DNA from: Pontiellaceae bacterium B12219
GTDB lineage: Bacteria; Verrucomicrobiota; Kiritimatiellia; Kiritimatiellales; Pontiellaceae
Assembly: GCA_029432795.1 (NCBI GenBank)
Contig: JARNMJ010000010.1
Span: 1-64,000 of the forward strand
Length of the DNA stretch: 64,000 nt
Direction: 5' to 3'
This document shows, piece by piece, positions 41,411 to 55,520 of this stretch. The position numbers and the translations under genes are program-made. The notes under the pieces were generated by a model that worked only from the letters and a program-made list of their open reading frames with translations, did no database searches and was not told the DNA's origin. Numbering within the stretch: position 1 is the stretch's first letter; each line of letters begins with the position of its first letter.

Positions 41411-42871
41411 ATGAAAATGAAGTGGATGAAAATCCCGGCATTAATGGCAGCGGCGATTGTGCTGGGACTAACCGTGCCGACTATGGCGCAGGACGCTGTG
41501 GAGGCAGAAGCGGTGGCTGTGGCTGCTGCGGAAATGGCAATGGATGCTGGAGTAACAGCAACTGATGCCGCTCTTACAGCGGAAGTGGCGCTGGAAGCGA
41601 CAGAAGAATCGGCATTTGATGCTGAAGTTATTGCCGGAGAGTGGGCATACGCCATTGATAATATGTTCTTATTGTTCTGTGCGGTGCTGGTGCTGTTTAT
41701 GCAGGCGGGATTTGCCTTGGTTGAGTCCGGTTTCAACAGCGCGAAGAACACGGTGAATATTCTGTTTAAAAACCTGATGGATTTGTCGATCGGCATGATT
41801 CTCTATTTTATCATCGGGTATGGCCTGATGTATCCGGGCGACGGCAACGGCTGGTTGGCCTTTGGCCAGTTCGGCATCGGCGGCAATGGAGCTGATATTG
41901 CTGAAGCGGGTGCTTTGACGCTGCAGGTGGACTGGTTGTTCCAGGTGGCCTTCGCGGCAACGGCTGCAACGATTGTTTCCGGTGCGGTTGCAGGTCGTCT
42001 TAAATTCAGTGCATATCTGGTGTACAGTGCGGTTCTGACTGCGATCATCTATCCGATTTCCGGCTATTGGAAATGGGGCGGCGGCTGGCTCGATCAGATG
42101 GGCTTCTACGATTTTGCCGGTTCTTTGGTGGTGCATGCCTGCGGTGGTTTTGCTGCTCTGGCGGCTGCCATTGTGCTCGGCCCGCGTATCGGACGCTTCG
42201 GTAAGGATGGTAAGCCCAGAGCAATGCCGGGCCATAACCTGCCGCTCGCTACATTGGGTGTCTTTATTCTGCTTATCGGCTGGTTTGGTTTCAACCCGGG
42301 CTCACAGTTGGCGATTGTCGGAAAAGACAATACCGAAGCGGTTACGCTGATTGCAGTGAATACGCTGCTGGCTGCCGGTGCCGGTGCGGTTCTCGCTATG
42401 ATCGTTACTTGGGTCATGCATAAAAAGCCGGATCTGACTATGGCGGCCAACGGAATCCTGGCCGGTCTGGTGGGCATCACTGCCAACTGCGACGGAGTAA
42501 CCAATGTGGAAGCCATCATCATTGGCTCAGTTGCCGGTATTCTGGTGGTCTTCGGGGTTAAGCTGCTCGACAAATTGCGGATTGATGATCCGGTTGGTGC
42601 CTTCCCTGTGCATGGTCTCTGCGGTGTCTGGGGCGGTATTGCCACAGCGCTCTTCGGTTCCTATGGCGACGGCTACGGAAACTGGGTGGCTCAGATCACC
42701 GGTTCCATTGCCATCCCGCTCTGGTCCTTCGTCACCATGTTCATTCTGTTCATGATCCTGAAAAAAGTCGGCATGCTCCGCGTCAGCAAGGAAGAAGAAC
42801 TCCGCGGGCTGGATATTGGCGAGCACGGCGAAGAAGCCTACCACGGTTTCCAGATCTTTACCTCTAACTAA
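41411..42871 (+). CDS. amtB: Ammonium transporter AmtB
   Basis: 486 residues. Signal peptide 1-26 (TVPTMA-Q), then a mature N-terminal extension of about 50 residues, very rich in Ala and Glu (DAVEAEAVAVAAAEMAMDAG), before the first membrane helix at about residue 82 (NMFLLFCAVLVLFMQAGFALVESG). Eleven helices follow. The twin His of the pore are in VVHACGGFAAL and FPVHGLCGVWGG, and the signature GFNPGSQLAI is present. It conducts ammonium as a trimer in the inner membrane and is blocked by GlnK. Sigma-54 promoter upstream, glnK 26 nt downstream. Confidence 0.97.
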   Translation: MKMKWMKIPALMAAAIVLGLTVPTMAQDAVEAEAVAVAAAEMAMDAGVTATDAALTAEVALEATEESAFDAEVIAGEWAYAIDNMFLLFCAVLVLFMQAGFALVESGFNSAKNTVNILFKNLMDLSIGMILYFIIGYGLMYPGDGNGWLAFGQFGIGGNGADIAEAGALTLQVDWLFQVAFAATAATIVSGAVAGRLKFSAYLVYSAVLTAIIYPISGYWKWGGGWLDQMGFYDFAGSLVVHACGGFAALAAAIVLGPRIGRFGKDGKPRAMPGHNLPLATLGVFILLIGWFGFNPGSQLAIVGKDNTEAVTLIAVNTLLAAGAGAVLAMIVTWVMHKKPDLTMAANGILAGLVGITANCDGVTNVEAIIIGSVAGILVVFGVKLLDKLRIDDPVGAFPVHGLCGVWGGIATALFGSYGDGYGNWVAQITGSIAIPLWSFVTMFILFMILKKVGMLRVSKEEELRGLDIGEHGEEAYHGFQIFTSN

Positions 42872-42897
42872 CCGGCTCATAGGAAAGGAGTATTAAA

Positions 42898-43239
42898 ATG
42901 AAACTGATAATTGCCTATGTGCAGCCTGAACAGCTCAACGAAGTGAAGCAGAGCCTGTACGAAAAAGAAGTCTATAAAATGTCTGTGACCAACGCCATGG
43001 GCTGCGGCCAGCAGAAAGGCTACCACGAAACCTATCGCGGCGCGGACATCGAGGTGAACCTGCTCAAGAAAGTTCGTATTGAGATCGCGGTGAACGATGC
43101 CTTTGTTGACACCACGGTGGAAGCCATCATTTCCGGTGCCCGCACCGGGAACATCGGTGACGGTAAGATCTTTATTCTGGATCTGCCGGAGTGCATTCGC
43201 ATCCGTACCGGAGAAAAAGGTCAGGATGCCGTAGGTTAA
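42898..43239 (+). CDS. glnK: P-II nitrogen regulatory protein GlnK-like
   Basis: 113 residues. Trimeric P-II protein that binds ATP/ADP and 2-oxoglutarate and plugs AmtB. Conserved: the B-loop [12 protein letters not shown] and the C-loop RIRTGE. The T-loop reads [24 protein letters not shown]: Gln39 and Tyr46 are kept, but position 51, the uridylylated Tyr in enteric P-II proteins, is Ile. So GlnD-type modification at that site is impossible; control would be by ligand binding only. The pairing with amtB supports GlnK over GlnB. Confidence 0.95.
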
Positions 43240-44147: not shown

Positions 44148-44406
44148 ATGCCTTTAGCGGGTGGAGGCAATTTGTCTGGATTTTGTTGAGTTGTGTCTTG
44201 AGGGGGCATCATTGTGTGGCGCCATCTATTACATAGATGTTTGTTTTTGGAGTGCCTGATCAATATGAGCACATAATTGTATTTATTTGTTTTCGGTGAA
44301 GTTGTTGGAGCTCTTGTTGTTTTAGCGACAAAAGTATGGTGTAAGCTCATTATATATGGGTATTTAATGTTTTTTATAGTTGGGTTGATCTGTGGGTTCT
44401 TATCGA
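44148..44406. other. AT-rich upstream region of the guanidine/urea operon
   Basis: AT-rich spacer of about 260 bp. No reading frame is convincing, and I find no guanidine-I, -II or -III riboswitch motif that I recognise. It presumably carries activator sites for the sigma-54 promoter that follows. Confidence 0.4.
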
Positions 44407-44422
44407 TGGCGCGCTTCTTGCA
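44407..44422 (+). promoter_or_regulatory. Sigma-54 promoter of the guanidine/urea operon
   Basis: TGGCGC-GCTTC-TTGCA, matching TGGCAC-N5-TTGCA at all but one position with exact spacing. It is 68 nt before the first gene. An imperfect inverted repeat, TATAG-N5-CTGTA (44449-44463), lies just downstream of the expected start point and could be an operator. Confidence 0.9.
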
Positions 44423-44489
44423 TAGATTTGGATAATACTAAAAAAGTATATAGTAGTACTGTAGAGGATGAGGAACCCAAATCAGGAGC

Positions 44490-45485
44490 ATGAACAAAAT
44501 GAAGAATACAATAGCATCAATGGTGAAACCGACCGCAATGGTCCTCACGCTCATAGCCGGCATTTCAACCGCCGTAGCGGAACCGCTGAAGATTGCATAC
44601 AGCGATTGGCCGGGCTGGGTGGCCTGGGATATCGCCAAGGAAAAAGGATTTTTTGAAAAGCAGGGCGTGGACGTTGAGCTGCTCTGGTTTGAATATGTAG
44701 CATCCATGGATGCATTTGCGGCCGGAAAAGCAGATGCGGTCTGTGTGGCCAATGGCGATTCCATGGTGCTGAATGCCACCGGCGCCCGCAATGTCATGAT
44801 TCTGGTGAATGATTATAGTAACGGTAATGATAAGATTGTGGCTCGATCTGGAATTACCGATGTGAAAGAACTGAAAGGAAAAAAGGTCGGTGTTGAGATC
44901 GGGTTCCTCAGTCACGAGTTGCTGATGAAAGCATTGCTGGACAACGGTATGACGGACAAGGACGTTGAGCTGATCAACATGCCGACCCATCAGGCCGCAC
45001 AGGTGCTCGCTTCCGGCGATGTGGATGCGATTGTCGCCTGGCAGCCCCATTCCGGCATGGCGCTCAAAGCATCCGAAGGTTCAACCGCAGTGTACACCAC
45101 GGCCGATGCGCCCGGCATCATTTATGACACCCTCGCGGTGGCTCCGGGCAGCCTGCTCAAGCGAAAGGATGACTGGCAGAAAGTGACCGCCGCCTGGTAC
45201 GACGTGATTGATTATATGAACGATCCGGCCAACGAAGAGGAAATGCTGGAAATCCTGTCGGCCCGGGTTGGTCTGAGTCCGGCGGAATACAAGCCCTTTC
45301 TTTCCGGCACCAAAATGCTGAGCAAGGCGGATGCGCTGAAGGTTCTGGAAAAAGACGAAGGGTTTGAGTCCCTCTATGGGTCCTGCACGGTGGTGAACGA
45401 TTTCTTCGTGGCGAACAAAGTGTATGAAGAGCCGGTCAACGTGAATCGCTGTATTGATCCTTCATTCACCGAAGCGGTTAAATAA
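44490..45485 (+). CDS. ABC transporter substrate-binding protein of the urea/guanidine-carboxylase cluster
   Basis: 331 residues with an N-terminal signal (about 1-30, LIAGISTAVA). NitT/TauT-type periplasmic binding fold: LKIAYSDWPGWVAWDIAKEKGFFEKQGVDVEL, VKELKGKKVGVEIGFLSHELL, and GDVDAIVAWQPHSGMAL. The subfamily is found with urea carboxylase genes. The YSDWPGW segment would be part of the ligand pocket. Given the neighbouring pathway, the ligand is more likely guanidine or a close analogue than urea, which is an inference. First gene of the operon behind the sigma-54 promoter. Confidence 0.88.
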   Translation: MNKMKNTIASMVKPTAMVLTLIAGISTAVAEPLKIAYSDWPGWVAWDIAKEKGFFEKQGVDVELLWFEYVASMDAFAAGKADAVCVANGDSMVLNATGARNVMILVNDYSNGNDKIVARSGITDVKELKGKKVGVEIGFLSHELLMKALLDNGMTDKDVELINMPTHQAAQVLASGDVDAIVAWQPHSGMALKASEGSTAVYTTADAPGIIYDTLAVAPGSLLKRKDDWQKVTAAWYDVIDYMNDPANEEEMLEILSARVGLSPAEYKPFLSGTKMLSKADALKVLEKDEGFESLYGSCTVVNDFFVANKVYEEPVNVNRCIDPSFTEAVK

Positions 45486-45573: not shown

Positions 45574-46587
45574 ATGGCTAATACAGAAGAAAAATGGTTT
45601 AGATTTGGAAAAGGACTTTCACAGAAGCGGGTGCGGGGGCTGACTGTGGCTTCCTTCATCCTGCCACTGCTGCTATGGGCAGCGATCAGCTACCTTCCAA
45701 TTTGGCAGCCGGAAGTGATGATCAAAGAAACGGGCGATACGATTTATTTTGAAACGGGCGACCGGGTTGATGCTGAAACTTTTCAGCTTGAAAATGAAAA
45801 GCTGACGGCTGCCGGCGATCTTCCAATGGTTGGAAAACGGGTGAACCCGGTTTATTTTCCGGCACCGCACCAAGTGACTAAAGCACTCTATTCCGCATTT
45901 GCCAGCGAGCCGCGCCGCGAAGGCGATCCCTGGTTTTATGAAAGTGTCGCCCACAGTGTGAAAGTGGTGTTCTGGGGGTTTATTCTCTCGTCGATTATTG
46001 GTGTTCCGCTGGGAATCATGTGCGGTGTTTTCAGTTTCTTTTCCCGATTGATTGAACCGTTTGTTGAATTCTTTCGCTATTTTCCTGCTCCGGTTTTCGG
46101 TGCATTGGCCGTTGCCATTCTCGGAATCAACGATGCCCCGAAAGTGGCGATCATTTTCATCGGGACCTTTTTTCAACAGGTGCTGGTGATTGCCAATACC
46201 ACGCGCACGGTCGATTTTGCTCTGGTCGAGGCCGCCCAGACGCTTGGCGCAAAACCGGGGCGGTTGCTCTTTAAAGTAGTGATTCCTTCCGTGCTGCCGA
46301 AGCTTTATATGGATATGCGCATTCTGCTCGGTTGGGCCTGGACCTACCTCATTGTGGCCGAGGTGGTCGGCACCAGCACGGGGATCAGTTGGTTCATTAA
46401 CCAGCAGGCAAAATACCGCATGTTCGAAAACGTGTATGCCGCCATTCTGGTGCTCGGTTTCATCGGGCTCGGAACCGATATGATTCTCGGGGCCATCGGC
46501 CGCGAGCTCTTTGCCTGGGAGGATGGCAAGCGTTCGTTCCTCAGCCGAATGCTGAATAAAAACAAATCGACGCCGGTGGAGGTCTGA
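45574..46587 (+). CDS. ABC transporter permease of the guanidine/urea cluster
   Basis: 337 residues. A first helix (about 28-45), a periplasmic region of about 85 residues with beta character, then the five-helix permease core starting near residue 125 ([19 protein letters not shown]). The cytoplasmic EAA loop is [25 protein letters not shown]. The long insertion after TM1 is typical of the permeases that pair with urea-carboxylase-cluster binding proteins. It contains an exact TTCCAA palindrome. The ATPase gene follows after 2 nt. Confidence 0.9.
45821..45835. repeat. TTCCAA-N3-TTGGAA palindrome, copy 5
   Basis: TTCCAATGGTTGGAA inside the permease gene. A core near copy, TCCAATGGTTGGA, lies at 47023-47035 in the ATPase gene. 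Confidence 0.85.
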
Positions 46588-46589
46588 TC

Positions 46590-47489
46590 ATGAATATGCC
46601 CAACAAACTGAATCTGCCGAGTTACAAAGAGCAGTCCGCCGAAGTGAAAGCGCGTCTGGATTTCATTAAACGCCAGCCGGTGGTGCTGGAGATTGATAAG
46701 CTGGTGAAGGAATTCCCGACCGAAGAGGGCGTGCGCCGGATTCTCAACGGCGTTTCCTTTAAGGTGCATAAGCGCGAGTTTATGTCGATCATCGGGCCGT
46801 CGGGATGTGGAAAATCCACGCTGATCCGGATGCTGGCCTGTCTGGAAGATATCACCGACGGGCTGATTCTGCTCGATACCTATCCGGTCACTGAGCCCGG
46901 CGCCGATCGCGGCATGGTTTTTCAAAAGTACACGCTCTTCCCGTGGTTGACCGTGAAGAAGAATGTGATGTTCGGCCTCGAAGTCGCAAACAAGAGTGCA
47001 TTTGATGCCGAGCGCGATGCGCTCCAATGGTTGGATATTGTCGGGTTGGAAGACTATGCCGATCTCTATCCCGCTCAGCTTTCCGGCGGCATGCAGCAGC
47101 GGGTGGCGATTGCGCGCGCCCTCGCCAATAAACCGAAGGTGCTGTTGATGGACGAGCCCTTTGGTGCGCTGGATGCGCAGACCCGCGCCAAGATGCAGGC
47201 CTATCTGCTGCAGATCCGCGAGAAAATCGACATCACCATCATTTTCATCACGCACGATCTCGACGAAGCGGTATATCTTTCTGATCGTGTGCTTGTGCTG
47301 AAAGCCAATCCCGGAGAAATACAGGAAATGGTGGAAGTGCCGGTCGGGCGTCCGCGTTCGCCGGAGCAGTTTTTGTCGCCGGAATTTCTGACAACCAAAA
47401 TTCGCCTCGAAGAGTTAATCCATCCGTCGGTCGATGAATCGAAGGATGATTTTGAAGTCGTGAAAATGGTTGCGACGGAAGAGCAGTAG
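46590..47489 (+). CDS. ABC transporter ATP-binding protein of the guanidine/urea cluster
   Basis: 299 residues. Walker [10 protein letters not shown] at 69-77, Q-loop [13 protein letters not shown], signature [15 protein letters not shown], Walker [13 protein letters not shown] and switch His in [16 protein letters not shown]. The N-terminal 35 residues before the domain and the C-terminal 50 after it are extra relative to the NitT/TauT norm. It energises the transporter encoded by the two previous genes. It ends 13 nt before the regulator gene. Confidence 0.93.
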
Positions 47490-47502: not shown

Positions 47503-47952
47503 ATGTCGAAAGAAAAACAGAACTACAAACGTTTCAGCGTAACCATGCCGGCCGAGCTCTACGACGAACTCGAGCAGATGACGAAGGATCGGGGAATTGA
47601 TAACCGTTCGATGATGATTGCGGATCTCGTGAACCGCGAGTTGCTGAAATACAAACAGCAGGACCGCACCCGGGTCATGGCCGGCACACTGACCATTTCC
47701 TACGATGCCTCGGCCAATGACAGCGCCAACAAGCTGATCGCCCTGCGCCGCGCCTATCTCACAGAAGTCATTTCCACATTTCAGGTGATGCTTGAAGATG
47801 GCAAGAATCTCGAAATATGGCTGGTGCAGGGTGAGGTGGAAAAACTTTATACCCTGTTGTCAGAAGCCCTGCAGTCCGGGAAAAGCATGATGGGGCAAAT
47901 CACCTTTGCCGATGCCATTCTTCCGCCGCTTCGGGCCAACTCCAAAATCTAA
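47503..47952 (+). CDS. NikR-like ribbon-helix-helix regulator lacking nickel ligands
   Basis: 149 residues from the ATG at 47503, preceded by GAGGAAAG. N-terminal ribbon-helix-helix (KRFSVTMPAELYDELEQMTKDRGIDNRSMMIADLVNREL) followed by an ACT-like domain as in NikR (AGTLTISYDASANDSANKLIALRRAYLTEVISTFQVMLEDGKNLEIWLVQGEVEKLYTLLSEAL). By my alignment with E. coli NikR, the four nickel ligands (His76, His87, His89, Cys95) are all replaced, by Arg/Ala, Gln, Met and Asn. It therefore likely senses something else. Sitting between the transporter and the catabolic genes, it is the obvious candidate local regulator of the operon. Confidence 0.8.
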   Translation: MSKEKQNYKRFSVTMPAELYDELEQMTKDRGIDNRSMMIADLVNRELLKYKQQDRTRVMAGTLTISYDASANDSANKLIALRRAYLTEVISTFQVMLEDGKNLEIWLVQGEVEKLYTLLSEALQSGKSMMGQITFADAILPPLRANSKI

Positions 47953-47968: not shown

Positions 47969-48694
47969 ATGAATGAAATACCCACAGATAAAATAAGTTA
48001 TGAAACGGTCGTTTCCGGAGGTTGGAACTTTTCTCAAATCATTCGTCGCGGGCGTACGGTCCGTCTCACCGATCTCGAAGGCGGTGCGAATGTCTCCGCG
48101 CTATTCTATAATGCGGACAACTACACCGAGCGCTACAATATGGGCGACACGCTGAAAATTCAGCATATCTCCTCGCTCTTCAAAAATGCCTGTATCTATT
48201 CCGATATGGGCCGTGTGCTGATGAGTGTGACGGATTCTTCCTGCGACTGGCACGATGTCATCTGCGGCGTGACCTATCGCGAAGACATCCTTAAACGCTT
48301 CGGTGTGAAATCCTATCAGGAATCGCACAACGATTTTTATCGCAATGGATTTGATTCGCTCACCGTCGAGCTCGCCAAATACGGTATGACCAAACGCGAC
48401 TTTACCAACGTGGTGAACTTTTTCTCGAAGACACTCATTAACGAAGCGGGTGATCTGTCTTTTGTGGAAAATTATTCCCCCGCCGGAAGTTATGTGGATC
48501 TGCGGGCTGAAATGGATACATTACTGGTGCTCGACACCGGGATGCATCCGCTGAATCCCTCCACTGAATATCTCAGAAAACCGGTAAAAATTACCCTGTT
48601 TGAAAGCGATCCCGCTGCGGCCGATGATCCGTGCCGCCTGTTATGCCCCGAAAACGAACGCGGCTTCACCAACTCCGAAACTTACTATCTCTAG
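47969..48694 (+). CDS. DUF1989 protein, urea-carboxylase-associated (carboxyguanidine deiminase subunit candidate)
   Basis: 241 residues from the ATG at 47969; the longer frame to 47906 overlaps the regulator. DUF1989 family, urea-carboxylase-associated type. Visible: ISYETVVSGGWNFSQIIRRGRTVRLTDLEGGANVSALFYN, SLFKNACIYSDMGRVLMSVTDSSCDWHDVICG (Cys/His/Asp cluster that may bind metal), NFFSKTLINEAGDLSFVENYSPAGSYVDLRAEMDTLLVL. In published guanidine-degrading bacteria two such proteins form carboxyguanidine deiminase (CgdAB), converting carboxyguanidine to allophanate and ammonia. The next gene is the partner, 11 nt away. Confidence 0.88.
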   Translation: MNEIPTDKISYETVVSGGWNFSQIIRRGRTVRLTDLEGGANVSALFYNADNYTERYNMGDTLKIQHISSLFKNACIYSDMGRVLMSVTDSSCDWHDVICGVTYREDILKRFGVKSYQESHNDFYRNGFDSLTVELAKYGMTKRDFTNVVNFFSKTLINEAGDLSFVENYSPAGSYVDLRAEMDTLLVLDTGMHPLNPSTEYLRKPVKITLFESDPAAADDPCRLLCPENERGFTNSETYYL

Positions 48695-48705
48695 GAGATC
48701 CGATT

Positions 48706-49356
48706 ATGAGCGAATTGAAAGAAAGTACTCTTGTGGAAAAAAACGCCCGGCTGAGCGAAACCGTTCCGGCAGGAACCTATTGGATGAAAGTGGTAAAAAA
48801 GGGCGAGACTCTTCGAATCACCGATTTGGAAGGCAACCAGGCGGCCGACACGCTCTTCTTTAATGCCAACAATACCGACGAGCGCTACCACGCCAACAAC
48901 ACGCTGCGCATGCAAAGCAATGTCTACATCAAGTTGGGCACGGCCATCCGTTCCAACGAGAATAAGGTGATGATGACCATTACGGCCGATACCTGCGGGC
49001 GGCACGATACACTCGGCAGTGCCTGTTCCTGCGAAAGCAACACCTCGCGCTATGCGCACGACAAGCGCTACATGCACAGTTGCCGCGATACTTTTCTGCA
49101 GGCCATTACCGACTGGGGTATGGGCATGAATAAGCGCGACCAGGTTTGCAATATTAACTTTTTCATGAATGTGCCGGTGAATCCGGAAGGCGGATCCAAC
49201 TTTGCCGATGGAATTTCGGGAGCCGGTAAATATGTGGAAATGGTTGCTGAGATGGACACGATTGTTCTGCTCTCGAACTGCCCGCAGCTCAACAACCCCT
49301 GCAACGCTTATAACCCGACGCCGGTTCAAATGACGGTTTGGGAAAAGGGAGCGTAA
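48706..49356 (+). CDS. DUF1989 protein, second carboxyguanidine deiminase subunit candidate
   Basis: 216 residues from the ATG at 48706, with AGGAG upstream. Paralogous to the preceding protein: LRITDLEGNQAADTLFFNANNTDERYHANNTLRMQ, then MMTITADTCGRHDTLGSACSCESN (rich in Cys/His), MHSCRDTFLQAITDWGMGMNKRDQVCNINFFMNVPVNPEGG, SGAGKYVEMVAEMDTIVLLSNCPQLNNPCN. The two paralogues share the DLEG and AEMDT anchors and would form the hetero-oligomer needed for activity. One nt separates it from the carboxylase gene. Confidence 0.88.
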   Translation: MSELKESTLVEKNARLSETVPAGTYWMKVVKKGETLRITDLEGNQAADTLFFNANNTDERYHANNTLRMQSNVYIKLGTAIRSNENKVMMTITADTCGRHDTLGSACSCESNTSRYAHDKRYMHSCRDTFLQAITDWGMGMNKRDQVCNINFFMNVPVNPEGGSNFADGISGAGKYVEMVAEMDTIVLLSNCPQLNNPCNAYNPTPVQMTVWEKGA

Positions 49357-49357
49357 C

Positions 49358-52300
49358 ATGTTTTCAAAAGTACTCGTTGCAAACCGCGGTGAAATTGCCT
49401 GCCGGATCATTCGGACGTTGCGGGAAATGGGCATCACATCGGTTGCGGTCTATTCCGACGCCGATGCCGATGCTGAACACGCGGCTTTGGCGGATGAAGC
49501 CTATAACATTGGCCCCGCGCCGGCGAAAGACAGCTATCTGAACACGGCAAAGATTCTGGAAGTCATGCAGGAAAACGGCGTCGAAGCCGTGCATCCGGGC
49601 TACGGCTTCCTGAGCGAAAATGTGGAGTTCAGTCAGGCGTGTGCGGAAATCGGCGTTGAATTCATCGGTCCGGAGGAAAAACATATTCTCGAGTTCGGGC
49701 TCAAACATCGGGCACGCGATCTGGCAGAGGCCGCCGGTGTTCCGCTCGTGCCTGGAACCGGCCTGCTCAACAGCGAGAGCGAAGCGCTCGAAGCCGCCGA
49801 AAAAATCGGCTATCCGATCATGCTCAAAAGCACCGCCGGCGGCGGTGGCATCGGCATGCGCATTTGCAACAGTTCCGATGAGCTGGAAGCGCACTACGAA
49901 ACCATCAAGCGCCTTGGCAAAAACTATTTTAAGGACGAGGGGCTGTTCCTCGAAAAATACATCAAAACCTCGCGCCATATTGAAGTGCAGGTTTTCGGCA
50001 ATGGCAAAGGCCGGGTCACCGTTCTCGGCGAGCGCGACTGTTCCGTGCAGCGCCGGAATCAGAAGGTGATTGAAGAAACGCCCGCGCCGAATATTTCAGA
50101 AGAAACCCGGCGCGCGCTTCATGCAGCGGCCAAAGTGCTGACCGAAAAAGTGGCCTACCGTTCCGCCGGCACCGTCGAATTTATCTACGACACCGAAACC
50201 GAAGAATTCTATTTTCTCGAAGTGAATACCCGTCTGCAGGTGGAGCACGGCATTACCGAAGAAGTGTTTGGCGTCGACCTCGTGCGCTGGATGGTGGAAC
50301 TGGCCGCGGGCGAAGATCCAACGGTTGGAATCGGCGAACTTGAACCGACCGGCTGTGCCATGGAGTTCCGGGTGTATGCCGAAGATCCGGGCAAAGAATA
50401 TCAGCCGTCCAGCGGCACGATTACAAAAGCCGAGTTTCCGGAAAATATCCGCTGCGATAAATGGATCGAAACCGGAACGGAGGTGTCAGCGTTCTATGAC
50501 CCCTTGTTGGCCAAAGTCATCGTCAAAGGCGCAGACCGTAAGGAAACGATCGCCAAGTCGATCGATGCGCTGACGGCCACAAAAGTTTACGGATTCGAAA
50601 CCAATATTCATCTGATGAAACAGGTGCTTGAAAACGAAACCTTTCGGAAGGGTGAGGTCTTTACCGGATTGCTCAACACCTTTTCCTATGAGGTGAACAC
50701 GATTGAAGTCGTGATTCCGGGCACGCAGACCACGGTGCAGGATGTGCCGGGCCGTACCGGATTCTGGGGCGTCGGCGTTCCGCCGTCCGGACCGATGGAT
50801 ATGCTCAATTTCCGCATGGCCAATCGGCTGGTCGGAAATGTGGAAGAGGCCGCTGCATTGGAAATGACGATGTCCGGCGGAAGTTATACATTCAATACCA
50901 ATTCGACGGTGGCTGTAACCGGTGGCGATCTGACGGTGATGCTTAACGACAAAACGGTTCCGTTGTTTGAAGCCATTGAAGTACATGCGGGCGGTACGCT
51001 GAGCATCAGCGCTTTCTACAAGGGCCAGCGGGCCTATCTTGCCGTACGCGGCGGGCTGGATGTGCCGGATTATCTGGGCAGTAAATCGACCTTCATTCTG
51101 GGGAAATTCGGCGGGCATGCCGGCCGTGCATTGATGGCGGGCGATGTGCTGCATATCGGCAATGCGGTTTCCAGGGATTGGAACATGAAGCAACTGCCGG
51201 AAGCGGCCCGGCCCGAAATTTCCAACCATTGGAAAATCGGTGTGATGTATGGTCCGCATGGCGCACCGGATTTCTTTACCGAAAAGGATATCGAAACCTT
51301 TCTGCAGCATGAATGGGAAGTGCACTTCAACTCGTCGCGCACCGGCGTCCGTCTGATTGGCCCGAAGCCGGAATGGGCGCGGACCGACGGCGGCGAAGCG
51401 GGATTGCATCCCTCGAACATTCATGACAATGCCTATGCCATCGGCGCGGTCGACTTTACCGGCGACATGCCGGTGATCCTCGGCCCCGACGGCCCGAGCC
51501 TCGGGGGCTTTGTCTGCCCGGTCACGGTGATCGGTGCCGAGCTTTGGAAGGTAGGTCAGCTGAAGCCGGGCGACACGGTTCAGTTTATTCCGGTGGCATT
51601 GGAAGAAGCCGGAGAGCTGCACGCGGAAAATGAAGCGCTGGTTGAGTCCGGCGAACCGATGACCGTTCCGAAATACACAACAATTGATCAGACGCCGGCG
51701 GTGATTGCATCGTGGAATGAAGACGATGAATTTGAAAAAGTGGTCTGCCGCCAGGCGGGCGATCAATATCTGCTGTTGGAATTCGGTCCGCTGCAACTGG
51801 ATCTGCGTCTGCGGTTTAAGGTGCATGCCTGGAACCTGAAGTTTGAGGAGTTGAATCTGCCCGGCGTGATTGATCTGACGCCCGGCATCCGCTCGTTCCA
51901 GATTCATTTCGACCCGAAGGTGTTGCCACGCACCAAGCTGTTGGATCTGATTGATTCGCTCATGATTGAACTGGGGGAAAATCCTCCGGAAGAAGTGGAA
52001 TCACGCATCGTTTATCTGCCGCTGAGCTGGGACGATCCGCAGACGCGGCTGGCGATTGAAAAATATATGTCTTCCGTTCGGAAAGACGCGCCGTGGTGTC
52101 CGAGTAATATCGAATTCATCCGCCGCATCAACGGGCTGGATTCCATTCAGGACGTGCAGGATATTCTGTTCGATGCCAGCTATATTGTAATGGGGCTGGG
52201 CGATGTCTATCTCGGCGCGCCGGTGGCCACGCCGGTCGATCCGCGGCATCGGTTGGTGACGACCAAATATAATCCGGCGCGAACCTGGACGCCGGAAAAT

Positions 52301-52951
52301 GCGGTGGGTATCGGCGGCGCCTATATGTGTGTCTACGGCATGGAAGGACCGGGCGGATATCAGTTCGTCGGCCGTACTGTTCAAATGTGGAACCGCTACA
52401 ACATTACCCGCGAATTCGAATCCGGTAAGCCGTGGCTGCTCCGCTGTTTTGATCAGGTTCGGTTTTATCCGGTTTCGGGGGACGAGTTGATGCAGATGCG
52501 TCGCGATTTTCCGAAGGGCCGCTTCTCGCTGAAGATCGAAAAAATGACCTTCAATATTAATGAATACAACCAGTTTCTGGTCGACGAAGCGGAAGGCATT
52601 GAGGTCTTTAAAACGAAGCAGCAGGAATCCTTTGCGGCAGAATATCAGCACTGGGTGGATAACGATTTGCTGACGTTTGAGGAAGCGGTGAATGAAGCAT
52701 CGGCCGAAGAGAATGAAGTGGAAGAAGGAACGGTTCCGGTGACGGCGTCCGTGGCCGGTAGTGTTTGGCAGTTTAAGGTGGAAGTCGGTGATGCAATTGA
52801 GGATGGCGCAGAAGTCGCGGTGCTGGAAAGTATGAAAACCGAAATCCCGGTTTCGGTCACCTGCTCCGGTAGCGTTGCGCAGGTGTTCTGCAAAGCGGGC
52901 GACACCGTAAAACAGGGGCAGGTCGTCTGCACCATCCGCCCGAACGTATAA
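49358..52951 (+). CDS. Biotin-dependent guanidine/urea carboxylase
   Basis: 1197 residues in a single chain. Biotin carboxylase with ATP-grasp (1-450: KVLVANRGEIACRIIRTLRE, MLKSTAGGGGIGMRI, EVNTRLQVEHGITEEV), then a carboxyltransferase half built of PxpC/KipA-like (about 455-765, DVPGRTGFWGVGVPPSGPMD) and PxpB/KipI-like (about 795-1030) segments, and a biotin carrier domain with biotin Lys1160 in LESMKTEI. Classically annotated urea carboxylase; enzymes encoded beside the DUF1989 pair have been shown to prefer guanidine. This one is therefore called guanidine carboxylase by context. It has near-adjacent coupling with the deiminase genes and holds one exact TTCCAA palindrome. Confidence 0.93.
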   Translation: MFSKVLVANRGEIACRIIRTLREMGITSVAVYSDADADAEHAALADEAYNIGPAPAKDSYLNTAKILEVMQENGVEAVHPGYGFLSENVEFSQACAEIGVEFIGPEEKHILEFGLKHRARDLAEAAGVPLVPGTGLLNSESEALEAAEKIGYPIMLKSTAGGGGIGMRICNSSDELEAHYETIKRLGKNYFKDEGLFLEKYIKTSRHIEVQVFGNGKGRVTVLGERDCSVQRRNQKVIEETPAPNISEETRRALHAAAKVLTEKVAYRSAGTVEFIYDTETEEFYFLEVNTRLQVEHGITEEVFGVDLVRWMVELAAGEDPTVGIGELEPTGCAMEFRVYAEDPGKEYQPSSGTITKAEFPENIRCDKWIETGTEVSAFYDPLLAKVIVKGADRKETIAKSIDALTATKVYGFETNIHLMKQVLENETFRKGEVFTGLLNTFSYEVNTIEVVIPGTQTTVQDVPGRTGFWGVGVPPSGPMDMLNFRMANRLVGNVEEAAALEMTMSGGSYTFNTNSTVAVTGGDLTVMLNDKTVPLFEAIEVHAGGTLSISAFYKGQRAYLAVRGGLDVPDYLGSKSTFILGKFGGHAGRALMAGDVLHIGNAVSRDWNMKQLPEAARPEISNHWKIGVMYGPHGAPDFFTEKDIETFLQHEWEVHFNSSRTGVRLIGPKPEWARTDGGEAGLHPSNIHDNAYAIGAVDFTGDMPVILGPDGPSLGGFVCPVTVIGAELWKVGQLKPGDTVQFIPVALEEAGELHAENEALVESGEPMTVPKYTTIDQTPAVIASWNEDDEFEKVVCRQAGDQYLLLEFGPLQLDLRLRFKVHAWNLKFEELNLPGVIDLTPGIRSFQIHFDPKVLPRTKLLDLIDSLMIELGENPPEEVESRIVYLPLSWDDPQTRLAIEKYMSSVRKDAPWCPSNIEFIRRINGLDSIQDVQDILFDASYIVMGLGDVYLGAPVATPVDPRHRLVTTKYNPARTWTPENAVGIGGAYMCVYGMEGPGGYQFVGRTVQMWNRYNITREFESGKPWLLRCFDQVRFYPVSGDELMQMRRDFPKGRFSLKIEKMTFNINEYNQFLVDEAEGIEVFKTKQQESFAAEYQHWVDNDLLTFEEAVNEASAEENEVEEGTVPVTASVAGSVWQFKVEVGDAIEDGAEVAVLESMKTEIPVSVTCSGSVAQVFCKAGDTVKQGQVVCTIRPNV
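51220..51234. repeat. TTCCAA-N3-TTGGAA palindrome, copy 6
   Basis: TTCCAACCATTGGAA in the carboxylase gene, with an extra T/A pair outside. A 13-bp core near copy, TCCAACGGTTGGA, lies at 50317-50329 in the same gene. Confidence 0.85.
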
Positions 52952-52994: not shown

Positions 52995-54761
52995 ATGAAA
53001 AATTTACAGATTAGTTCCCTGCTCAAAGGGTATGCCGATGGTGCCTTTACGATCAGCGATGTTGTTTTCCAATGTTTGGATGTGGCGGAGAAGCTGCCGA
53101 AGGAAGTGTGGATCCGGAAGCTGACGGCGGAAGAGGTGGCGGTGTATGTCCGGGCCCTGGAAGGGGAATCGCCGGAAACGAAGCCGCTTTATGGCATTCC
53201 GTTTGTGATTAAGGACAATATTGATTTGGCCGATATTCCATCGACCGCGGGCTGCCCGGATTTTGAATATCTGCCGAAGCAATCGGCGCATGTGGTGGAA
53301 CAATTGATTCAGGCCGGTGCCATTCCGCTCGGGAAGACCAATCTCGATCAGTTTGCCACGGGTCTGGTCGGAACGCGTTCGCCCTATGGGGCCTGCCCCA
53401 ACCATTTTGATCCCGATTATATTTCCGGCGGTTCCAGCAGTGGTTCGGCGGTTGCTGTGGCCGGCGGATGTGCCAGCTTTTCGCTCGGTACGGACACCGC
53501 CGGCTCCGGCCGTGTGCCGGCGGCATTTAATAATTTGATCGGGCTGAAACCGTCGAAAGGATTGCTGAGCTGCTCCGGTGTGGTGCCGGCCTGCAAGAGC
53601 CTCGACTGCGTTTCGATTTTTGCGCTCGATGCGGCCGATGCACAGGCGGTTTTCAAGGTGGCCGCTCATTTTGATGCGGACGACTGCTATGCCCGCGAGC
53701 TGGCTCAGGCGCCGACCCTTTCCAGGGGCTGGACGTTTGGCGTTCCCAAAATGGAACAACTGAAGTTTTTTGGAAACGAGGAATATAAAGCCGCCTTTTT
53801 GAAGAGTGTTGCGATGCTGGAAAAGGCGGGGGGAACGCAGGTGGAAATTGATTTTCAGCCCTTCCTCGATGCGGCGAATCTGCTCTATTCCGGTCCGTGG
53901 GTGAATGAGCGCTATGCGGCGGTTGGCGATTTTATCGAGGCCAATCCGGATGCTGTGCTGGAAACCACGCGCACGATCATTCTCTCCGGCCTGCAGATTC
54001 CTGCGCCGGAAGTCTTTGAATCGATGTATAAATTGCAGGCGTTTAAACGCATGACTGACCGGATCATGAATTCGGTGGATATGATCGTTACGCCGACCGC
54101 GGGCACCTGCTACACGATTGATGAAGTGAATGCCGACCCCATTCAGCTGAATACGAATCTGGGCTTTTATACCAACTACATGAATTTGCTGGATTACGCG
54201 GCGATTGCGGTTCCGACGGCGCTGACTTCTTCGCTTCCGTTTGGAGTGACGCTGGTGTCGTTTGCCGGGCACGATTTGAAACTGCTGCAACTGGCCGATC
54301 GCCTGCATCAAGTGACCGGATTGTCTGTTGGGAAAACGCAGCATCGTCCGGTGCCGCTTGTTCCGGTTCTCAATGACGGAATGGTGGATGTTGCTGTTTG
54401 CGGCGCGCATCTGAACGGCTATCCGCTGCACCATCAGCTGACCGATTTGAAAGCGACCTTTGTGGGATCAGCGGAGACGGCTCCCGAGTACCGGATGTAT
54501 GCCTTCGAAACCGGCGGCGTGGCGAAGCCCGGCCTGATTCGCGATGCGGAAAAGGGCGGGGGAATCTATCTGGAAATCTATCGGCTCAGCCACGAAGCTT
54601 TCGGCAAATTTGTCAGCTGCATTCCTGCACCGCTCGGTATGGGCAAAGTAACATTGAAAGACGGCCGTACGGTTGCCGGATTTATTGCTGAGCCGATGGT
54701 GGAACAGATCGGCGAAGAGATCACGCAGCTTGGTGACTGGCGGAAATTTGCCGGCAAGTAG
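52995..54761 (+). CDS. atzF: Allophanate hydrolase
   Basis: 588 residues, full AtzF/DUR1-type length. Amidase-signature domain (about 1-440) with the Ser-cisSer-Lys triad: Lys73 in FVIKDNID, the cis-Ser in GGSSSGSAVAVA (147-148) and the nucleophile Ser171 in GTDTAGSGRVPAAFN. The C-terminal AtzF domain (about 455-588, GAHLNGYPLHHQLTDLKATFVG, YRMYAFETGGVAKPGLIR) finishes hydrolysis. The reaction is allophanate to two ammonia and CO2, the last step after the carboxylase and deiminase. It is 43 nt from the carboxylase. A one-mismatch TTCCAA palindrome sits at 53067-53081. Confidence 0.96.
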   Translation: MKNLQISSLLKGYADGAFTISDVVFQCLDVAEKLPKEVWIRKLTAEEVAVYVRALEGESPETKPLYGIPFVIKDNIDLADIPSTAGCPDFEYLPKQSAHVVEQLIQAGAIPLGKTNLDQFATGLVGTRSPYGACPNHFDPDYISGGSSSGSAVAVAGGCASFSLGTDTAGSGRVPAAFNNLIGLKPSKGLLSCSGVVPACKSLDCVSIFALDAADAQAVFKVAAHFDADDCYARELAQAPTLSRGWTFGVPKMEQLKFFGNEEYKAAFLKSVAMLEKAGGTQVEIDFQPFLDAANLLYSGPWVNERYAAVGDFIEANPDAVLETTRTIILSGLQIPAPEVFESMYKLQAFKRMTDRIMNSVDMIVTPTAGTCYTIDEVNADPIQLNTNLGFYTNYMNLLDYAAIAVPTALTSSLPFGVTLVSFAGHDLKLLQLADRLHQVTGLSVGKTQHRPVPLVPVLNDGMVDVAVCGAHLNGYPLHHQLTDLKATFVGSAETAPEYRMYAFETGGVAKPGLIRDAEKGGGIYLEIYRLSHEAFGKFVSCIPAPLGMGKVTLKDGRTVAGFIAEPMVEQIGEEITQLGDWRKFAGK

Positions 54762-54902: not shown

Positions 54903-55520
54903 ATGAAAAGAAACTTTATTGAGGGTCAGCCGGCGCTGTTGGTGATTGATATCCAGGGCCCGCTTTTTATAGATCACAGCGAGGAAGCGATTCCCTGTAT
55001 GGAAGGTTTTGATGAGCGAATGGCAAAGTCGGCAAAGCTCATTAAAAAGGCGCGTGAAAACGACATTCCGGTCATCTTTATCCAGGAGGTGCATCGGCCG
55101 GATCTGAGTGACATCGGTCGGGAACTGGATGGCGCGGAAGACGTTCACTGCCTCGAAGATGATCCGAACACGGAAATAAATGTGGAGGTGCTCGATTTCC
55201 GTCCGACGGATTATCGGATCAGGAAACGCCGCTATTCCGCCTTCTTCGGAACGGATCTGGAAATTCTGCTGAAGGGGCTGAAGGTTGATACGTTAATTCT
55301 GTGCGGTTGTCTGACCGATGTCTGTGTGCACTATACCTTTGTGGACGGGCATCAGCACGACTATTTCTGTCGGGTGGTCGAAGACTGTGTGGCCGGTTCT
55401 TCTCTGGATGCGCACGAAGCATCGCTCAATGCGATGGAATATCTGCAGGCCGGGGCGCGAAGCCATCTGGAAAATGTGTTGAACGAATTTGGGCAATATG
55501 GAGCGCGCAGGATCGCCTAG
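54903..55520 (+). CDS. Isochorismatase-family cysteine hydrolase
   Basis: 205 residues. Cysteine-hydrolase family with catalytic Asp in LLVIDIQGPLF (about residue 19), Lys in IRKRRYSAFFG, and Cys in LILCGCLTDVCVHYTFVDGHQHDYFC. Two acidic segments (VHRPDLSDIGRELDGAEDVHCLEDDPNTEI) lie before the Lys. The family includes biuret hydrolase, N-carbamoylsarcosine amidase, ureidoacrylate amidase and nicotinamidase. Following allophanate hydrolase in an island of urea-like nitrogen compounds, biuret hydrolase (biuret to allophanate) is an attractive guess but not proven. It is separated from the previous gene by 141 bp and may have its own promoter. Confidence 0.85.
   Translation: MKRNFIEGQPALLVIDIQGPLFIDHSEEAIPCMEGFDERMAKSAKLIKKARENDIPVIFIQEVHRPDLSDIGRELDGAEDVHCLEDDPNTEINVEVLDFRPTDYRIRKRRYSAFFGTDLEILLKGLKVDTLILCGCLTDVCVHYTFVDGHQHDYFCRVVEDCVAGSSLDAHEASLNAMEYLQAGARSHLENVLNEFGQYGARRIA

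Follow-up and report, generated by a model that had tools for sequence, protein, structure and literature searches.

A NikR-derived regulator without nickel ligands as a candidate guanidine-responsive repressor of bacterial guanidine operons

The 64,000-nucleotide stretch of Pontiellaceae bacterium B12219 DNA analyzed here (the window) encodes a NikR-like protein without nickel ligands, the gene of which lies 13 bp downstream of an ABC transporter ATPase gene and 16 bp upstream of the first DUF1989 gene, all on the same strand. This arrangement raises the question of what a relative of a nickel sensor controls, and to which signal it responds, once the metal site is gone. The operon consists of the following genes.

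44490..45485, + strand: ABC transporter substrate-binding protein (Pfam NMT1_2; NCBIfam SsuA and ABC_peri_uca matches below cut-off)
45574..46587, + strand: ABC transporter permease (Pfam BPD_transp_1)
46590..47489, + strand: ABC transporter ATPase (Pfam ABC_tran)
47503-47952, + strand: NikR-like regulator without nickel ligands (open reading frame of 149 amino acids)
47969..48694, + strand: DUF1989 protein UAAP1, likely a carboxyguanidine deiminase subunit (TIGR03425, 297 bits, over cut-off)
48706..49356, + strand: DUF1989 protein UAAP2, likely a carboxyguanidine deiminase subunit (TIGR03424, 316 bits, over cut-off)
49358..52951, + strand: guanidine (urea-family) carboxylase with Asp699 (TIGR02712, 1838 bits)
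52995..54761, + strand: allophanate hydrolase (TIGR02713, 741 bits, over cut-off)

The UAAP1/UAAP2 pair, the carboxylase, and the allophanate hydrolase occur together in this operon, and all four exceed their NCBIfam cut-offs. By profile the carboxylase is a urea carboxylase, yet alignment with 3va7/5i8i places Asp699 at the Asn position of the Kluyveromyces lactis (K. lactis) enzyme. According to a recent review, guanidine carboxylases possess Asp and urea carboxylases Asn at this carboxyltransferase site (PMC12186494). The guanidine-type Asp was present in the carboxylase of every relative locus with a readable site, and the same residue in the window disfavors urea as the operon substrate. 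Gene order was the same in close Pontiella relatives. The earlier note had placed the regulator inside a guanidine operon, and the same-strand UAAP1/UAAP2, Asp699-containing carboxylase, and allophanate hydrolase genes bear this out; as a prediction from gene content and this diagnostic residue, assignment of the operon to the guanidine pathway is well supported. Directly upstream on the same strand (41411-43239), and also at the related loci L001 and L002, are amtB and glnB (P-II), consistent with nitrogen control of the neighborhood. On the 3′ side of the operon, positions 54903-55520 (+ strand) encode an isochorismatase-type hydrolase with weak matches to biuret amidohydrolase and RutB, which one relative retains farther downstream (L002, 19422-20009).

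The regulator itself has two domains in the order found in NikR, and both Pfam matches are above cut-off.

47530..47640, + strand: ribbon-helix-helix (RHH) DNA-binding domain, residues 10-46 (Pfam RHH_1), DNA-contact positions R/S/T retained
47680..47862, + strand: NikR_C domain, residues 60-120 (Pfam NikR_C)

RHH_1 scored 22.3 bits against a cut-off of 20.5, and NikR_C scored 38.8 bits against 22 (E 1.1e-9), in agreement with the earlier description of the protein as a NikR derivative with RHH and ACT-like halves. The NCBIfam NikR models also matched, all under their curated cut-offs (best 65.2 of 105 bits). The best alignment to a solved structure (phmmer, E 1.4e-16) was to Pyrococcus horikoshii (P. 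horikoshii) NikR, 2bj1, and it covers residues 10-127, including the nickel-site region. In the alignment, His76, His87, His89, and Cys95 of E. coli NikR correspond to R83, Q94, M96, and N102. Because the nickel site was tested and is absent, the window protein should not be classed as a NikR. Two residues of NikR_C, E98 and Q109, were invariant in alignment A2. A structure model built with four close sequences was of low confidence (pLDDT 54), and Foldseek searches with it gave NikR and aspartokinase regulatory domains as top matches, none of them significant. A search of the window genome for further NikR_C proteins found none.

Splitting the related sequences by the HHHC ligand motif gave 33 nickel-type NikRs and 44 others tied to guanidine operons, the latter including one relic and one truncated copy. 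In the tree, all 40 of the guanidine-linked rows fell on one side of a branch with 100/100 support, in a clade with hosts in the Verrucomicrobiota/Kiritimatiellota group, the Alphaproteobacteria, and Acinetobacter. Cys95 was lost in 44/44 guanidine-linked members, a result that is partly built into the HHHC split. Three differences are independent of that split: NikR position 102 is Q in 43/43 guanidine-linked proteins versus R/K in 33/33 nickel-type proteins; E occupies position 91 in 41 of the 44 guanidine-linked proteins, against D or small residues in the nickel-type set; and 43 of the 44 carry an LPP-type tail, which none of the 33 has. The residues of the former nickel site differ widely among subgroups, which read HHHY, HLHS, AHFS, RHLT, RHLV, RHQT, and, for the window clade, RQMN at the ligand positions; Arg replaces His76 in 21 of the 44 members. 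The earlier statement that all nickel ligands have been lost thus applies to the window clade only; elsewhere in the family His87 frequently persists, and in one subgroup all three His residues do. This pattern suggests a stepwise loss with Cys95 first, which may have run from HHHY/HLHS through RHLT/RHLV/RHQT to RQMN.

The retained His residues bear on the possibility that the regulator still senses nickel or another metal by means of different residues, thereby linking the operon to metal status. Metal binding is possible in the HHHY subgroup and in those with His87, but in the window clade all four ligands are missing, and none of the 44 members has kept Cys95. Searches of the window operon with Pfam and NCBIfam profiles revealed no known nickel enzyme or transporter, and genome G130 encodes a separate HHHC NikR in addition to its guanidine-operon regulator. 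We regard metal sensing as quite improbable.

The association of the regulator with guanidine genes was examined in a phylum survey of 388 genomes, with UAAP2 over its cut-off as the marker. The relatives recovered were close orthologues and a full-length set at 26-37% identity with guanidine-operon genes as neighbors. UAAP2 exceeded the cut-off in 44 of the genomes, and in 37 of these the regulator was encoded in the same cluster; the exceptions were G002, G009, G011, G070, G089, G112, and G211. In the window genus, the regulator was present in 5/5 genomes with UAAP2 and absent from 5/5 without it. Fisher's exact test gave a p value of about 5e-45, which shows only the one-sidedness of the table, since zero regulators were entered outside UAAP2 genomes (the G085 relic was not counted) and relatedness was ignored. 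Of 27 weaker matches in the phylum that were taken from genomes without UAAP2 or from another contig in G130, 26 were HHHC proteins and one was a relic. Outside the phylum, plasmid-collection records placed the regulator in guanidine operons of Novosphingobium, Sphingobium, Asticcacaulis, and Acinetobacter. Co-occurrence with DUF1989-carboxylase clusters, which had been proposed as a check, is thus strong both in the phylum and in Proteobacteria.

The relic, an HHHY-type regulator interrupted by a stop (L123, 4498-4830, - strand), is located in genome G085, which has no UAAP2 match, and regulator and operon seem to have been lost together there. Such a broken copy, along with the loss of ligands, is what one might cite for a decaying NikR that merely resides in the operon. 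Nearly all members, however, have open frames, clade-specific residues, and a conserved operator (described below), they are conserved over lineages, and the one broken copy sits in a genome lacking the UAAP2 match; we find decay hardly credible.

Guanidine operons without the regulator were also encountered. The notion that these are urea carboxylase operons was rejected, as the same Asp is present there. Loci L075-L080, from two families, have three DUF1989 genes in a row and lack both the NikR-like regulator and the operator. In another regulator-less operon (L081, 6942-9149), creatininase-like and glutamine-synthetase-like genes, recognized by eye, lie between the ABC ATPase and UAAP1 genes and may mark the use of a related guanidino compound.

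Two control elements were identified upstream of the window operon.

44407..44423, + strand: sigma54 (-24/-12) promoter, TGGCGCG-cttc-TTGCAT, matching 8/8 consensus positions
44432..44459, + strand: putative operator, ATAATAC-N14-GTAGTAC (7-14-7), an 11/12 match to GTAnTAC-N14-GTAnTAC that is conserved in Pontiella relatives

Sigma54-like promoters (at least 7/8 positions, no farther than 200 bp from the transporter gene) were present in 36 of 40 operons versus 2.5 expected. The window operator begins at about +1, the expected start, of the sigma54 promoter. Alignment of Pontiella promoters revealed the sigma54 promoter followed by a conserved half-site pair, and the same pair recurs in other families, in their divergent intergenic regions, as well as in Alphaproteobacteria; some subgroups retain GTATGA/TCATAC half-sites in place of GTAnTAC. 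The layout is identical to that upstream of nikA in E. coli K-12, GTATGAC-N14-GTCATAC. The 44400-44490 region singled out for footprinting in the earlier note does hold a conserved NikR-type operator. The window has no other good consensus match, and a degenerate pattern matched the genome exactly at three places, this site and two that look repetitive. Across 42 regulator-bearing loci, 61 sites agreed with the consensus at 11 or 12 of 12 positions versus 2.2 in shuffled sequences, a score that was partly tuned on the scanned loci, which are related and non-independent. Fifty of these sites, spread over 35 loci, preceded an operon gene by no more than 400 bp, and seven loci had no site at the 11/12 threshold. 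A cleaner measure came from 18 loci held out of motif derivation, where 20 half-site pairs were spaced by 21 bp, compared with 7 pairs for all 36 remaining spacings between 8 and 44 bp combined. No operator sites were found upstream of operon genes in seven regulator-less guanidine loci, and none in seven NikR loci. These findings give good support to GTAnTAC-N14-GTAnTAC as the likely DNA target of the regulator. Regulator and operator each appear dispensable, because 7/44 operons lack the former and seven regulator-bearing loci lack the latter.

Taken with the distribution, these features make it probable that the protein is a NikR-derived local regulator dedicated to the operon for taking up and degrading guanidine, a putative repressor that would be released by guanidine or a pathway intermediate. 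A tetramer would occupy both half-sites, its two RHH dimers two helical turns apart. Since the window operator starts near +1 of the sigma54 promoter, the bound regulator would block transcription, and the promoter would contribute control by nitrogen status. Release would follow when a small molecule of the guanidine pathway bound the NikR_C region where the ancestor bound nickel.

The same operator could also be read without any effector, the protein serving as an RHH repressor or autoregulator of constant activity that fixes basal expression while signals arrive via sigma54, an enhancer-binding protein, and GlnB. The sigma54 promoters upstream of nearly all guanidine operons, the amtB and glnB genes adjoining the window operon, and the wide variation of former nickel-site residues among subgroups would all fit such a role. 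A NikR_C domain that merely held dimers together would not be expected to be kept with the clade-specific invariant residues E98 and Q109, however, and a guanidine sensor of their own is the rule among the other guanidine operons on record (PMC12186494). We judge constant repression unlikely.

Riboswitches are the sensors described for this pathway: a 2025 review lists them as the only known guanidine receptors besides transporters and enzymes (PMC12186494). The window gave no Rfam match to a guanidine riboswitch, Guanidine-I was not found in the window genome, and a riboswitch was accordingly rejected as the control element of the window operon. A scan limited to Guanidine-I found none in 46 genomes selected by UAAP2 match, scans with all classes found no riboswitch in six regulator-less clusters, and no known riboswitch was detected in the scanned clusters of the L075-L080 type. 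When a few regulator-bearing loci were searched with all Rfam classes, the sole riboswitch recovered was Guanidine-I in an Acinetobacter baumannii record, 5′ of UAAP1-UAAP2-carboxylase. In this record (L089; 1860-1887, 1922-2017, 8838, 14192) an operator is situated directly upstream of the riboswitch, and a second operator precedes the regulator and allophanate hydrolase genes, so that a protein and an RNA apparently control a single pathway together. Because both elements share this pathway in Acinetobacter, a related signal for regulator and riboswitch is supported.

If the NikR-derived repressor does respond to such a signal, it would fill the role that guanidine riboswitches have in other bacteria. 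We tentatively suggest that guanidine or an intermediate of its pathway has taken the place of nickel at the old metal site, which would make these proteins the first family of guanidine-sensing transcription factors. With equal reserve, the regulator could then be seen as a replacement for the riboswitch in Verrucomicrobiota and in Sphingomonadales/Caulobacterales, and as acting alongside it in Acinetobacter. As the operon encodes a transporter and enzymes for guanidine, guanidine is the simplest candidate ligand, and we would rank it first, followed by carboxyguanidine or allophanate. R83 of the window clade is not obviously a good fit to a guanidinium cation and makes an anionic intermediate possible. 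The true ligand might accordingly be a downstream intermediate (carboxyguanidine or allophanate) or urea rather than guanidine, a variant of the same repressor model. The pathway intermediates are anionic, and a carboxylate could be bound by the Arg that replaces His76; this Arg is not universal, being absent from the HHHY, HLHS, and AHFS subgroups, and carboxyguanidine is unstable and would be a poor inducer. We consider this variant rather doubtful.

Compared with known systems, the window regulator shares with E. coli NikR and its nik operator, and with P. horikoshii NikR, the RHH and NikR_C domains, the DNA-contact residues, and the 7-14-7 operator. It differs in the replacement of all four nickel ligands in the window clade, in the family-wide changes from R/K102 to Q and from D91 to E and the extra LPP-type tail, in half-sites that are GTAnTAC in most subgroups rather than the GTATGA of NikR, and in being tied to guanidine instead of nickel genes. 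Operons controlled by Guanidine-I have the same pathway genes (UAAP1/UAAP2, carboxylase, allophanate hydrolase, ABC transporter), whereas the window operon has a protein regulator and no riboswitch was found in the window or, for Guanidine-I, in the UAAP2 genomes of the phylum; Acinetobacter has both. That an RHH protein can bind both DNA and a small molecule has a precedent in the c-di-GMP-binding CdbA, which differs in being described as a nucleoid protein (PMC7156744).

The 2025 review anticipates that guanidine-binding transcription factors may yet be discovered (PMC12186494). In the openly licensed papers searched, neither NikR nor CopG was found connected with a guanidine or urea carboxylase, and the earlier remark that such a regulator is undescribed agrees with that literature. 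In many bacteria a former nickel sensor appears to have been turned into a switch reserved for the genes of guanidine degradation, and the family is a candidate for being the first known protein sensor of guanidine. With a defined candidate operator in hand, the question of a guanidine-binding transcription factor becomes directly testable, and the protein is a possible biosensor for guanidine. The family also provides a natural series (HHHC, HHHY, RHLT, RQMN) in which a metal sensor loses its metal site and keeps the geometry of its DNA target. Another NikR-like protein without a full nickel site, unconnected with guanidine, was noted in Parabacteroides, where a protein annotated nikR (L099, 2992-3393) has QQYC at the ligand positions and is encoded between SusCD and a TonB receptor.
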